Shown here: positions 2,821 to 19,279 of the stretch, one piece after another | Layout of the letters: the number at the start of each line of letters is the position of its first letter | How positions within the stretch are numbered: the stretch's first letter is position 1 | Notes under the pieces: generated by a model | Database searches by the model: none | Seen by the model: the letters and a program-made list of their open reading frames with translations, nothing else | What the model was told of the DNA's origin: nothing | Made by a program: the position numbers and the translations under genes | DNA from: a virus | Strand: one strand, 5' to 3' | DNA: 20,129 nt | Virus record (IMG/VR): IMGVR_UViG_3300046371_000458 | Coordinates: 1 to 20,129 of that record

Positions 2821-3228
2821 ATGAAACACAGAATTTTTGAACTATATAAACCACGTTCACTCGCAGAGTTTTTGGCATTCTACAAAGAGAATCCTAAGGA
2901 AACTTTTGTATATGTATTACAGCACCCGGCGCCACAAATAAATATTTTAAGTGCGTCAGATTTTGGATATTTGGTAATTTGTTTACCATCAACAGATAAT
3001 ATGTTGTACAGCACGGCACCTTTTATTAGAAAGATGAGAAAAAATTTACAGGATTTTAAACCCGATGATTATATTTTATGTACGGGTGATCCTTCAATTA
3101 TTGGATTATCCACTGCTATTGTTAGTGACATTACGCAAGGACAGTTTAATCTCTTGAAATGGGATAGACAAGAGAGAAGATATTATCCCTTAATGATAGA
3201 CATATATAATAAAGGAGAAATAGAGTGA
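2821..3228 (+). CDS. Conserved-type hypothetical early protein
   Basis: I do not recognise a named domain in this 135-residue protein. It looks like a compact alpha/beta fold: a helical N-terminus (SLAEFLAFYKEN), a strand-rich middle (FVYVLQ, GYLVICLP) and a conserved-looking stretch DDYILCTGDPSIIGLSTAIVSD at about 83-104. No membrane helix or signal peptide is seen. It is the first rightward gene after the divergent promoter region and precedes the replication genes, so an early role is likely. No good ribosome-binding site precedes the ATG; upstream is AAGAAAGTATAATAAAA. Its stop overlaps the GTG start of the next gene (GTGA). Confidence 0.82.
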   Translation: MKHRIFELYKPRSLAEFLAFYKENPKETFVYVLQHPAPQINILSASDFGYLVICLPSTDNMLYSTAPFIRKMRKNLQDFKPDDYILCTGDPSIIGLSTAIVSDITQGQFNLLKWDRQERRYYPLMIDIYNKGEIE

Positions 3229-3785
3229 GTACACTTACATTAGATGATCTAGAACAAGATCAACAAAACTTAATAGAAAAATCAGATATAAAAACTTTGG
3301 CTATGCATTGTCAAGAACTGCAGGCGCATGAAGAAGAGATTATAAGACTAGAAGAACAAGTTAAAGATATCAAACAAAAAGCAGATAAAATTTCATCAGA
3401 GGTGATACCAGAATTACTTGCAGAGCAAGGGCTGTCATCTTTGAAACTTGCTGATGGTAGTGGAGTAGAAGTTAAAAAAACTTACAGTTGCACTGTAAAA
3501 AAAGACTCTATGGAATTAGCATACAACTGGCTTCGAGAGAATGGACTCGGTGATCTTATTAAAAATGAGGTTGCTGTTACATTCGGTAAAGGCGAAGATA
3601 ACAAGGCAGAGCAATTGCTTAGCCTTGCAGAGCAAGAAGGTTATGAGCCTCAACAAAAACAAAAAGTTGAGCCCATGACATTGAAGGCTCTCTACAGGGA
3701 GCGTGTCGAGGCCGGCCTCGACATGCCTTCCGAATTCTTTCACACGTTTGTGAAGGATCAAACTAAAATAGGCCGGAAATCGTGA
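3225..3785 (+). CDS. Gp157-like coiled-coil replication-module protein
   Basis: This 186-residue protein starts at a GTG that overlaps the previous stop. Residues 25-70 form a strongly charged predicted coiled coil (ELQAHEEEIIRLEEQVKDIKQKA). A beta-like segment follows (LKLADGSGVEVKKTYSCTVKK), then a helical region and a C-terminal block LKALYRERVEAGLDMPSEFF that looks highly constrained. The plan resembles small phage proteins of the siphovirus Gp157 type encoded beside ssDNA-binding proteins; I hold this family assignment loosely. The gene lies immediately upstream of the SSB-like gene, so a role in replication or recombination is inferred. Oddly, codons for the C-terminal block switch to GC-rich choices (GTC GAG GCC GGC CTC GAC) and fold into three hairpins. 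Confidence 0.78.
   Translation: MSTLTLDDLEQDQQNLIEKSDIKTLAMHCQELQAHEEEIIRLEEQVKDIKQKADKISSEVIPELLAEQGLSSLKLADGSGVEVKKTYSCTVKKDSMELAYNWLRENGLGDLIKNEVAVTFGKGEDNKAEQLLSLAEQEGYEPQQKQKVEPMTLKALYRERVEAGLDMPSEFFHTFVKDQTKIGRKS
3687..3757 (+). other. Three tandem hairpins including a 20-bp perfect palindrome
   Basis: Inside the 3' end of the coiled-coil gene lie three adjacent stem-loops. The first is 3687-3702: a 6-bp stem with one G-U pair and loop TACA. The second is 3704-3723: TGTCGAGGCC followed by its exact reverse complement. The third is 3736-3757: a 9-bp stem with one G-U pair and loop CGTT. The GC-rich palindrome stands out in an AT-rich genome and uses codons that are rare in neighbouring genes. 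The next gene, for the SSB-like protein, begins 60 bp downstream. Possible roles are an attenuator, an RNase processing site, a DNA operator or a replication element. Confidence 0.75.
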
Positions 3786-3816
3786 ATCATGAAACATTAA
3801 CAAGGAGAATATAATC

Positions 3817-4578
3817 ATGAACCAAGTAGCAGAAAAAAAGAAGACAGACATTGCTTTAACAAGCATGTTTGAAGAAGACGCTAATACAGCTATAGGAGAA
3901 ATGGGAGCAGAAGATTTTGCTTTACCTTTCCTAAGAGTATTAGGACAACTATCACCCGAGATAAATAAACGGGACGCTAAGTACATAGAAGGCGCTGAAG
4001 CAGGTATGATATTTAATACCGTGACTAAGCAAGTGTATGATGGTGAGAAGGGAATCAACATAATTCCATGTTATTATAAACGTGAGTATGTTGAATGGTC
4101 GGATAGAGGAACAGGAACAAGTGCTCCTGTAGCTATACATCCGTCAACAAGTGATATCATCAATCAAGCTAAACGTGATGCAAATTACAAAGATAGATTA
4201 TCTAATGGTAACTATCTTGAAAACACTGCATCGTATTTTGTATTGACTGAAGATATGCAAACCGCACTAGTAACCATGAAATCTACGCAGTTAAAAGTTG
4301 CGAAGAACTGGAACACTATGATGAACACGTTAAAGATCAAAGGAAAGAATGGTCTGTTCACACCGGCGGCTTACAGTCACGTGTATAACCTTAAAACAGT
4401 AGAACAATCAAACGACAAGGGAACTTGGTTTGGTTGGAGTGTTGAAAAGGTTGGACCAGTACAAGAAAAATCTTTGTATGAGTCCGCAAAAAGTTTTGCT
4501 GAGAGTGTGTCTAAGGGAGACGTCAAAGCAAAACATGGTAATGACAGTACTAAGTCAGACGACGAAGTACCGTTTTAA
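3817..4578 (+). CDS. Phage single-stranded DNA-binding protein with SSB-type acidic tail
   Basis: This 253-residue protein has a folded part (about residues 35-215, rich in aromatic and basic residues such as YYKREYVEW and KNWNTMMNTLKIKGK) followed by a disordered polar region and the terminus KSDDEVPF. The last six residues imitate the bacterial SSB tail (DDDIPF in E. coli), which recruits replication and repair proteins. This tail and the position between the Gp157-like gene and the primase support an SSB role. The DNA-binding fold is not a recognisable bacterial SSB, so the assignment is by tail and context. A good Shine-Dalgarno, AAGGAG, lies about 11 bp before the ATG. A terminator-like hairpin follows the gene. 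Confidence 0.75.
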   Translation: MNQVAEKKKTDIALTSMFEEDANTAIGEMGAEDFALPFLRVLGQLSPEINKRDAKYIEGAEAGMIFNTVTKQVYDGEKGINIIPCYYKREYVEWSDRGTGTSAPVAIHPSTSDIINQAKRDANYKDRLSNGNYLENTASYFVLTEDMQTALVTMKSTQLKVAKNWNTMMNTLKIKGKNGLFTPAAYSHVYNLKTVEQSNDKGTWFGWSVEKVGPVQEKSLYESAKSFAESVSKGDVKAKHGNDSTKSDDEVPF

Positions 4579-4587
4579 TTAACCATG

Positions 4588-4619
4588 ATGTTCCGGGCAA
4601 CTCCCCCTGCCCGGAACAT
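4588..4619 (+). terminator. Terminator-like hairpin after the SSB-like gene
   Basis: A perfect 12-bp GC-rich stem (4588-4599 with 4608-4619; left arm ATGTTCCGGGCA) closes an 8-nt loop, ACTCCCCC. It is followed by ATTTCT, only a weak U-tract. It lies 10 bp past the SSB-like stop codon and just before the small basic ORF. It could be a leaky rho-independent terminator or a 3' stabiliser that sets high SSB mRNA relative to the primase. Confidence 0.7.
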
Positions 4620-4628
4620 ATTTCTAGT

Positions 4629-4856
4629 ATGAAAAGAAGCAGAGAATCGTTATATCAAATGCGTTACTATCGTAAAAAAACGATGGACGCTTTACGTAAT
4701 GAAAATAAACGGCTGAAAGAGCGAATTAATTTAATTCTAGACAGTCCGGAGGGAAAAGAATATAAACGAAGAAAGGCTCGCGAATACTATCGTGAGTATA
4801 GAGAGAAAAATAAAGATAAAATTAGAGAGTATCAAAGAGAGTATGCAAAAATTTAA
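4629..4856 (+). CDS. Small, highly basic hypothetical protein
   Basis: This 75-residue protein is dominated by Arg, Lys, Glu and Tyr, with an internal quasi-repeat (EYYREYREKNKDKIREYQREYAK). It is predicted to be one long charged helix. I recognise no domain; similar tracts flank HNH endonucleases in other phages, but no HNH core is present. It begins 10 bp after the terminator-like hairpin without an evident ribosome-binding site and overlaps the primase start. It could be a nucleic-acid-binding adaptor or simply a leader ORF for the primase. Confidence 0.55.
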   Translation: MKRSRESLYQMRYYRKKTMDALRNENKRLKERINLILDSPEGKEYKRRKAREYYREYREKNKDKIREYQREYAKI

Positions 4857-6375
4857 GGATATATTTGAAGGCAATAATAGTGCTTATGGACAATTAATAT
4901 TATCAGGCGAAACTACAGACAAAGGTAAAGCCGTTGGTAAAGCATTTATTAAAAGAGAATCAATTCCTGATCAGTTATGGAAAGAACACATTGAAGGTAA
5001 AGAGCCTGCACTAGGGGTAATACCTATTAATGAAGACAACATGTGTAGATGGGGATGTATTGATGTTGATGAATATAATTTAAGTCATCAAAAAATAATT
5101 GACGATGTAAAGAAAGCAAAGTTTCCATTAGTAACATTTAGATCAAAGTCTGGCGGCGCACATTTATTTTTATTTGCGAAAGAGTTTATTCCAGCATCAC
5201 TGATGCAATCAAAATTAAAAATGATGTCAGAGGCGCTAGGCTTTGGCGGTAGTGAGATATTTCCTAAACAGACAGAGATACTCGTGGAGCGTGGAGATAC
5301 AGGAAACTTTTTAAACTTACCATATCATGGAGACACATTAGGTTTTAGGTATACGTTTTTAGAAAATGGAGAAGAAGCTAGTCTAGAAGAGTTTTATAAA
5401 ATATATGACAACTCAGTACAGACTAAAGCTCAAATAGAATCTATTGTAGTAAAAGGCAAGGTTGTAAAAGAAGAAGCATTTAAAGATGGGCCACCATGTT
5501 TAAATAAATTAGCAGACGAAGGTTTTGGTGAAGGCTCACGTAATAATGCATTATTTAATGTAGCTGTATATCATAAACAGGCTAACCCGGATAATTGGGA
5601 AGATAAAGTTATGGAGGATAATACTAAGTGGATGAATCCACCATTAAACTATAAGGAAGTACAGGCACTATTAGCATCAGTAAACAAAAGAGGTTATGAT
5701 AAATATAGGTGTAAAGATCAACCTATTTGTGGAGTATGTAATGCTGCTAAATGTAGAACTAAAAGATTTGGTGTTGGATTTGAGGAAGAGCAGATGCCGG
5801 AGATGGATACATTAAGTAAGATAGCATCTAACCCACCGCAATGGTTTTTAAATGTTGGTGGTAAAAGAATAGAACTAAACTCGATGCAGCTACACAATGC
5901 TAATTTATTTGCGTTGGCTGTATTAGATCAAGCTAACATTATATCTCCTATACCAAAAGCAAAAGACTGGAGAGAGATTTATCTAAAACAACTTATGTTA
6001 AATCTAGAAGAGATAGAGCCTTTAGAATCATTAAACAGCAACGAACAGTTAGAAAATTTATTGTATGACTTTACAGTGCATAGAGCACAAGCAAGAACTA
6101 AGGAAGACATATTGAATAAAGCAGCGTGGACCGATGATGATAAGAAGATAACATTATTTAAGATGGATGATTTCTTTGCATTTGCGAAACGTAATAACTG
6201 GGAGATGGATAAAACTAAAACAGGTAATTTATTAAAACAATTAAAAGATATATTTGTAGAAGAGGTCAGATTAAAGATTAAAAACCAAACTCCTCGTCTT
6301 GTAAAAATAAAAGCTATGAAGAGATATGAACCGGATGTTTCTCAAAAGCCATACGAAGAAGAGGTACCTTTCTAA
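4843..6375 (+). CDS. Archaeo-eukaryotic (AEP/PrimPol-type) primase with SSB-like C-terminal tail
   Basis: I choose the ATG at 4843 (MQKFKDIFEG, 510 residues) over an upstream GTG at 4792, because the extension lies wholly inside the basic ORF and looks non-native. The N-terminal domain carries AEP primase motifs: GCIDVDEY with the metal-binding Asp74 and Asp76, SKSGGAHLFLF with His107, and EIFPKQTE (about 138-145) followed by NFLNLPYH. This is the type known as the TOTE-system primase domain. A PriCT-like helical segment follows (GSRNNALFNVAVYHK, around 231-245), then a four-Cys cluster (Cys290, 296, 299, 304) that could bind zinc, and an uncharacterised C-terminal region. The protein ends KPYEEEVPF, like an SSB tail. 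It would make primers for the phage polymerase. The stop shares one base with the helicase ATG. Confidence 0.82.
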   Translation: MQKFKDIFEGNNSAYGQLILSGETTDKGKAVGKAFIKRESIPDQLWKEHIEGKEPALGVIPINEDNMCRWGCIDVDEYNLSHQKIIDDVKKAKFPLVTFRSKSGGAHLFLFAKEFIPASLMQSKLKMMSEALGFGGSEIFPKQTEILVERGDTGNFLNLPYHGDTLGFRYTFLENGEEASLEEFYKIYDNSVQTKAQIESIVVKGKVVKEEAFKDGPPCLNKLADEGFGEGSRNNALFNVAVYHKQANPDNWEDKVMEDNTKWMNPPLNYKEVQALLASVNKRGYDKYRCKDQPICGVCNAAKCRTKRFGVGFEEEQMPEMDTLSKIASNPPQWFLNVGGKRIELNSMQLHNANLFALAVLDQANIISPIPKAKDWREIYLKQLMLNLEEIEPLESLNSNEQLENLLYDFTVHRAQARTKEDILNKAAWTDDDKKITLFKMDDFFAFAKRNNWEMDKTKTGNLLKQLKDIFVEEVRLKIKNQTPRLVKIKAMKRYEPDVSQKPYEEEVPF

Positions 6376-18115: not shown

Positions 18116-18644
18116 AGATATACTTGAGTGGTCTGAGAAGTACCTAGAACCAAAGAATGAATACTTAGGAAATGTCCCGGTATGTCCTTACGCGCGCACA
18201 GCCAGACTCAAGAAAACTTACAGAATATTAGAATGTAAAAACTTTAATGCTTTCCAAGATGCCATAATAGAGGGAGCAAAACTAGTAAAAGATCCTGATA
18301 TACAGATAGTTATAGTTGGTTGTGCTGATATTAAATATGAACCAGAAGAATTAGATTCAGTCATAGATATATTAAATCGTGTGTTAGTTCCACAAGACGT
18401 ATACCTGATGGGATCACATCCCTGGGACGAAGAAGAAGATCAACCTGTAGAGTTTTTAGAAACAGGAGAATGGGAACCAGAAAATGAGTTTATGATGGTG
18501 CTTATACAAAAATACGATGAACTAGAAAAAGCTAGTGACAATTTACGCAAAACTGGATATTATCGGCACTGGCCTAAGGACTATTACGAGGGCACAGTAA
18601 ATAAACGAAAATCTTATAGGAGATATCGACATGAAACCAGTTGA
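18099..18644 (+). CDS. Conserved-type hypothetical protein with VCPYA motif
   Basis: This 181-residue protein has an N-terminal WSEKYLEPKNEYLGNVPVCP followed by YARTARLKK. The VCPYA motif recalls small DUF1415-like proteins, where an L/V-CPFA motif is near the N-terminus; that is only a resemblance. An alpha/beta centre follows (IQIVIVGCADI, DVYLMGSHPWDEEED) and a basic, aromatic C-terminus (GYYRHWPKDYYEGTVNKRKSYRRYR). The function is unknown. It overlaps both the metallopeptidase gene and the next small gene. Confidence 0.72.
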   Translation: MKSIAEDILEWSEKYLEPKNEYLGNVPVCPYARTARLKKTYRILECKNFNAFQDAIIEGAKLVKDPDIQIVIVGCADIKYEPEELDSVIDILNRVLVPQDVYLMGSHPWDEEEDQPVEFLETGEWEPENEFMMVLIQKYDELEKASDNLRKTGYYRHWPKDYYEGTVNKRKSYRRYRHETS

Positions 18645-18813
18645 TAAAAAGAAAAATCCCGGTTTAGCAAAATTGCCGACAGAAGTTCGTAATAAAATGG
18701 GCTTCATGAAAAGAGGTGGGGCTGTTAAGAAAAAAATTAAAAAGAAAAAACGTGCTGGCAAAATGGGTGGCGGCATGATGAAAAAAAGAATGAAACGTGG
18801 AGGTAAAGCATAA
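18631..18813 (+). CDS. Very basic small protein
   Basis: This 60-residue protein is almost half Lys, Arg and Gly, with an N-terminal KNPGLAKLPTEVRNKMGFMK that looks conserved and a C-terminal poly-Lys/Gly/Met tail. It likely binds nucleic acid or a virion component. AGGAG at about 18618 precedes the ATG. It is the first of three consecutive small basic genes whose stops and starts overlap or nearly so (TAATG), so they are probably translated as a unit. Confidence 0.75.
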   Translation: MKPVDKKKNPGLAKLPTEVRNKMGFMKRGGAVKKKIKKKKRAGKMGGGMMKKRMKRGGKA

Positions 18814-18983
18814 TGGCTAAAGATACACACGTAACTAAGGATGGTAGAACAGCTAAAAAGGGTTTGTACTACTACATGAACCAACGCAAAAAGAAAGGCA
18901 CTAGCCGTAAAGGCAAAGGAACTGTTTCTGATAAAGCGTTAAAAGCATCTGCTAAAACTGCGAAGAAGCCAAAGAAAAAATAA
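18813..18983 (+). CDS. Very basic small protein (56 aa)
   Basis: This 56-codon ORF begins at the TAATG overlap with its upstream neighbour and ends in the same way before the next. It encodes TKDGRTAKKGLYYYMNQRKK followed by a Lys/Ser/Thr-rich tail. I recognise this kind of sequence from marine phage contigs as a short conserved basic protein of unknown function. The clean overlaps on both sides make it a confident gene despite its size. Confidence 0.8.
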   Translation: MAKDTHVTKDGRTAKKGLYYYMNQRKKKGTSRKGKGTVSDKALKASAKTAKKPKKK

Positions 18984-19279
18984 TGGCAACTTCTAGGGGG
19001 CAAATACCGAAGACCACTACTGGTAAAGGTGCGAACTATCGCAAGACTAAATCAGGTGCAGGTATGACAGCAAAAGGTGTAAAAGCCTATCGTCGTGCTA
19101 ATCCTGGTAGTAAATTAAAAACAGCTGTCACTGGTAAAGTTAAGCCAGGCAGTAAAGCTGCAAAGAGACGTAAGTCTTACTGCGCACGATCAGCAGGTCA
19201 ATTAAAAAGGTCATCTGCAAAAACAAGAAACGATCCTAATTCTAGAATTAGACAGGCGCGTAGAAGATGGAAGTGTTAA
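18983..19279 (+). CDS. DUF6321-like basic protein
   Basis: This 98-residue protein is strongly basic and matches a pattern common in marine phages: YRKTKSGAGMTAKGVKAYRR, then NPGSKLKTAVTGKVKPGSKA and CARSAGQLKRS, ending SRIRQARRRWKC. I take it to be the DUF6321 family. Its role is not known; the composition suggests DNA or RNA binding or packaging with the genome. One Cys occurs in YCARSAG and one at the C-terminus, and both look conserved in the pattern. No membrane segment is seen. Confidence 0.82.
   Translation: MATSRGQIPKTTTGKGANYRKTKSGAGMTAKGVKAYRRANPGSKLKTAVTGKVKPGSKAAKRRKSYCARSAGQLKRSSAKTRNDPNSRIRQARRRWKC

Follow-up and report, generated by a model that had tools for sequence, protein, structure and literature searches.

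The closest described counterpart of the locus analysed here is gene 32 of phages T4 and RB69. In its operator, T4 gp32 nucleates on a pseudoknot, from where it spreads across the start site; the fold precedes a leader that is A/U-rich, lacks structure and contains the ribosome-binding site (PMC535899, PMC3014915). The T4 gene 32 mRNA is also processed 71 nt upstream of the start and is unusually stable (PMC3014915). In T7 and T4, strong hairpins that are RNase III or RNase E sites bound cistrons in polycistronic messages; these are mostly intergenic, and their loop and core sequences need not be kept (see also PMC3014915). Conserved structured RNAs within coding regions have mostly been described in RNA viruses (PMC5758548).

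The locus lies in a stretch of viral DNA of 20,129 nucleotides, hereafter the window. At the 3' end of a gp33-like gene, it carries folded RNA upstream of a gene that encodes a probable single-stranded-DNA-binding protein. Its features are the following.
3225-3785, plus strand: gp33-like gene (DUF7307, phrog_2378; Pfam PF23984, E 1e-33), the 3' end of which carries the element.
3602-3627, plus strand: H0, a further hairpin missed by the preliminary description, with covariation and near-invariant third positions.
3687-3702, plus strand: H1, the first hairpin of the preliminary description, 6 bp, -6.9 kcal/mol, present in the window and not conserved.
3701-3726, plus strand: H2, the core hairpin, 11-bp stem, CCGG loop, -18.6 kcal/mol, containing the palindrome at 3704-3723.
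3736-3757, plus strand: H3, 9 bp, 4-nt loop, -8.9 kcal/mol, z -3.8, with a clade-variable sequence.
3758-3816, plus strand: leader before gp34, A/U-rich, weakly structured, with the ribosome-binding site AAGGAG.
3773-3776, plus strand: CCGG with a near-invariant CGG arginine codon, which may pair with the H2 loop (3712-3715).
3817-4578, plus strand: gp34-like gene (Pam3_Gp34, phrog_2402; Pfam PF23977, E 3e-71), the product of which has the tip DDEVPF.
4588-4619, plus strand: hairpin after gp34, -22.1 kcal/mol, z -7.4, terminator-like or a 3' boundary.

The gp33-like gene (gp33 of phage Pam3) sits between a gp32-like gene and the Pam3_Gp34 gene, and the primase, helicase and PolA genes follow. 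The leader at 3758-3816 is about 68% A+T by our own count, and the 70 nt past the gp33 stop show no excess folding in the hairpin-bearing groups (median z -0.4 in that of the window). The closest named phage genome with the element is 023Pt_psg01 (MW574966), and its name suggests that it belongs to the HTVC023P-type podoviruses (PMC9599517). The cultured relatives HTVC027P and HTVC023P have Pelagibacter as host; a search of bacterial genome contigs for relatives that would identify the host of the window phage found none.

The preliminary description had reported three stem-loops at 3687-3702, 3704-3723 and 3736-3757, and all of them are present at these coordinates. The second is the perfect palindrome TGTCGAGGCCGGCCTCGACA, and for perfect 20-bp palindromes only about 0.02 are expected per 20 kb (arithmetic with uniform bases). 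As RNA, it forms together with its flanks GCG...TGC the 11-bp stem of H2, which folds with a z of -5.1, none of 200 shuffles being equally good. In the window genome this stem can be extended to about 3697-3731; an association of arginine and proline codons in its lower part (3698/3728), with four same-branch changes against 1.5 expected, was judged unconvincing. Among the main window genes scanned with codon-preserving shuffles, the strongest excess structure is that of the gp33-like and gp34-like genes, where the sense strand overall exceeds the antisense strand. With z between -4.2 and -4.9, the region 3615-3765 ranks among the most strongly folded parts of the window, as is also the case in relatives. 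Neither H2 nor H3 is called as an intrinsic terminator (G+C-rich stem and directly following U run), the only terminator-like calls on the plus strand being the hairpin at 4588-4619 and a weak site at 3533-3550. No covariance model of Rfam 15 matches the window up to an E of 5, and no published description of the element was found in the open-access library that was searched.

The sense RNA fold at the 3' end of gp33 is under strong selection, a conclusion that we regard as practically certain. Relatives were collected by protein similarity and not by the palindrome, and changes were counted on a tree that comprised 131 distinct gp33-gp34 sequences, mostly metagenomic contigs; the tree was built with the element included, ancestral states are parsimony estimates, and the null consists of the same substitutions moved to random branches. 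H2 is paired in 99.8% of the cells of these 131 relatives. Of its changes, 18 are double and compensatory, 25 are single and compatible and one breaks a pair, against 1.3, 34 and 20 in the null. The search for compensatory changes, a check suggested in the preliminary description, thus strongly bears out the nucleotide-level selection proposed there. New A-C mismatches are never seen (6.7 expected) and G-U pairs are common, indicating that the paired strand is the mRNA strand. The paired variants include a change of GTC..GAC to ATC..GAT as well as GCCGGC, GCCGGT, TCCGGG and TCCGGA. Compensation is also found where it alters the protein, as in the change of GAG/CTC to CAG/CTG (Glu to Gln), and the variant GTTGAG..CTCAAT corresponds to an Asp to Asn change; RNA pairing can dictate amino-acid choices in a phage protein. 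Each of the 19 distinct H2 hairpins found by protein similarity has a better fold as sense RNA than as antisense RNA, partly because one G-U pair is constant.

A wider pattern scan, the listed matches of which include some contigs counted twice, added an AAG/CTT variant (Glu to Lys). Among the matches listed, 23 of 27 variants are fully paired; the matches number at least 298, all of them at one and the same position within gp33, with a single match in each locus. As the window also holds no second copy, a repeated or mobile palindromic element was rejected. The antisense open reading frame at 3516-4061 was likewise rejected as the cause of the conservation, given the stops in its frame in several relatives. 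The H2-bearing gp33 directly precedes gp34.

The covariation extends beyond H2. When all column pairs were compared with each other (376,356 pairs), 3705-3722 of H2 ranked third, and the top two, 3609-3620 and 3611-3618, both belong to H0. Under the tree null, H0 shows 21 double changes against 4.1 expected and H3 shows four against 0.7 (P 0.01), while H1 has no double change and as many breaks as the null on the 131-sequence tree. The structures selected in this branch of HTVC023P-type marine phages are H2, also H0 and, less certainly, H3. Of the hairpins proposed to lie in tandem, that at 3701-3726 has very strong support and that at 3736-3757 modest support, but that at 3687-3702 is unsupported and H0 had been omitted. 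Constraint on synonymous sites, suggested earlier as a check, is also apparent: 21 of 358 third-codon positions change at most once in the tree and comprise, besides Met/Trp codons and a small remainder, positions 3701, 3704, 3710 and 3713 in H2, 3605 and 3626 at the base of H0, and 3776.

What is kept is not the perfect palindrome itself, which is but one among at least 19 variants of an RNA hairpin. It had been said to need rare GC-rich codons; this holds for GTC, GCC, GGC and CTC, with shares of 13, 12, 16 and 7% within their codon families in the gp33/gp34 genes of the group, but not for GAG (43%). As H2 is retained by paired mutations despite amino-acid changes in the gene that hosts it, it very likely serves as a control element, and the SSB-like protein is probably its target. 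Few cases of conserved, covarying RNA structure within a coding gene seem to have been documented in double-stranded DNA phages. The compensatory changes and synonymous constraint within an open reading frame resemble those of the coding-region RNAs mentioned above (PMC5758548), but here the message is that of a double-stranded DNA phage and belongs to no Rfam family.

The next gene had been described as SSB-like, and fold matches and C-terminal tips agree on this. The gp34 sequence has no match in the PDB. An AlphaFold2 model (pLDDT 85) gave only weak Foldseek matches; in a second structural search, single-stranded-DNA-binding OB folds dominate, with all SSB-fold matches below Z 8. The RB69 gp32 core is among the best structural matches, with a Z of 6.3 over 154 residues. 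According to this model, gp34 is probably an OB-fold single-stranded-DNA-binding protein. The tip DDEVPF and the tips of the relatives resemble the acidic tip of bacterial SSB. The primase (4843-6375) also has an acidic, SSB-tip-like end, EEEVPF, closely similar to that of gp34.

We infer the target gene, ligand and mechanism of the element. As the layout is that of T4 and RB69, i.e. folded RNA, an A/U-rich leader with the ribosome-binding site and then an SSB gene, the most likely reading is that H2 and the associated structures are a cis-acting translational operator for gp34 that acts by a gene 32-like mechanism; we give this reading a little less than an even chance. Once single-stranded DNA is saturated, free gp34 would nucleate on the folded RNA and spread along the A/U-rich leader across the ribosome-binding site, and would thereby repress its own translation in the manner of T4 gp32. 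The likeness to gene 32 of T4 and RB69 includes conserved RNA structure ahead of the start codon of the SSB gene (H2 and H0 covary), an A/U-rich, weakly structured stretch between the fold and the ribosome-binding site and, less certainly, the predicted fold of the window gp34. In both cases, the sequence of the fold also diverges among related phages, and the fold is missing in some, RB49 there and the HTVC023P group here. In contrast to gene 32, the fold is here an 11-bp hairpin with accessory hairpins embedded in the codons of the preceding gene, a pseudoknot is no more than a possibility, the sequences are unrelated, and repression is a proposal.

The possible pseudoknot would involve the CCGG loop of H2 and the CCGG at 3773-3776. 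CCGG or UCGG (YCGG) is found downstream in 193 of 195 loci with a CCGG-loop hairpin, and relatives without the hairpin show no such use of the CGG codon, a contrast that falls largely between clades. Position 3776, in this codon, has a single third-position change in the tree, although CGG accounts for only 13% of the arginine codons in the group. This is no more than suggestive of a pairing between the loop and the downstream CCGG, which lies beyond the reach of covariation because the bases are invariant, and the 4-nt loop would be tight, leaving little space for a classical pseudoknot. If it formed, a ribosome terminating on gp33 would cover the 3773-3776 strand, which would couple the control of gp34 to the translation of gp33. 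It is also conceivable, although we rather doubt it, that phages have evolved SSB autoregulation through folded RNA a second time, separately from T4 gene 32, and that the element represents this second family, in which the operator, possibly a pseudoknot, lies in the codons of the upstream gene and its state is read by the ribosomes finishing that gene.

Other lineages bear on the operator from both sides. In the HTVC027P group, the gp33 of which is about 40% identical, a hairpin of different sequence is found at the same place, with only canonical pairs, no break and three double changes in 31 sequences; this counts for an operator. What counts against it, besides the low Z of the SSB-fold matches, is that the element lies within a translated gene, about 60-115 nt from the start codon, a greater distance than that of the T4 pseudoknot. 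No comparable structure is seen at the place of the hairpin in the HTVC023P group or in related Pseudomonas, Escherichia and Xanthomonas phages, which makes the element lineage-specific. As gp34 is present without the hairpin in the HTVC023P group and in some near relatives, the hairpin is unnecessary for gp34 expression in general.

Processing or stabilisation of the mRNA ranks second, since there is also a strong hairpin downstream of gp34, both in the window and in most of the related groups (it is absent in the HTVC023P group); we consider it possible but on the whole doubtful. The hairpins would be cut by, or would shield from, host RNase III or RNase E, and gp34, bracketed by H2/H3 and the hairpin at 4588-4619, would be left on a separate, stable and highly expressed message. 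Stems of 11 bp or longer, such as that of H2, could be substrates of double-strand RNases. Strong hairpins bounding a cistron would also recall the T7 and T4 sites, and the T4 gene 32 mRNA offers a precedent for processing (PMC3014915); cleavage is here only proposed. However, processing has no obvious need for the near-invariant GAG/CTC core, the CCGG loop or the downstream CGG codon. Moreover, the hairpin at 4588-4619 is outside the covarying element, and its counterpart is also found in relatives without H2, which indicates that the two hairpins are not linked.

The near-invariant core and loop of H2 suggest direct recognition, which could also be that of another protein or process acting on the RNA or on the single-stranded DNA of the plus strand, e.g. 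a phage or host regulator, an antitermination signal, or a primase or origin hairpin. Primase, helicase and PolA genes are nearby, and a hairpin in coding-strand single-stranded DNA would likewise tolerate G-T better than A-C. Nevertheless, the HTVC027P group retains the place and not the sequence, and a replication site would not have to occupy the same codon position upstream of gp34 in all of the phages, so that we regard this explanation as unlikely. Far less probable is a double-stranded DNA operator bound by a dimeric repressor or similar: the dyad is perfect in the window and the exact 20-mer is found in 67 viral contigs, but many or most variants (TCCGGG, GCCGGT, CTT against GAG) are asymmetric as DNA and paired as sense RNA. 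The G-U pairs and compensatory changes across the H2 versions argue against such a site, which is largely contradicted by sense-strand departures that are G-U and never A-C. Chance complementarity of the codons of a VEAGLDMP protein motif, the good conservation of which does fix several stem bases, is contradicted by synonymous Leu changes that track Glu to Gln/Lys (GAG/CTC, CAG/CTG, AAG/CTT) and by the numbers of double and breaking changes, and has a negligible probability.

Further structures were observed at the locus. Strong folds lie inside gp34 at 4147-4270 and 4447-4540, with z down to -5.2 and the sense strand far above the antisense; their position is not conserved, and RNAalifold over gp34 found no structure common to the relatives. 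In the HTVC027P group, the L228 sequence has another strong fold (z -5.7) about 250 nt before the gp33 stop, and several relatives have similar minima. The stem of the hairpin after gp34 differs wholly in sequence between phages, but (C/U)UCCCCC or a close variant is kept in the loop by 48 of the 58 sequences of the window group. A complement to the CUCCCCC loop was sought and rejected, the sole GGGGGAG of the window being the same loop on the other strand. The HTVC027P group and the hairpin-less relatives have a downstream stem with a GGGAGACU or GCGAGAGU loop (GNRA-like). Elsewhere, the window encodes a row of small, very Lys/Arg-rich proteins (18631-19279) and a tandem pair of fatty acid desaturases (Pfam PF00487, 14575-16067), which are unusual auxiliary genes for a phage.
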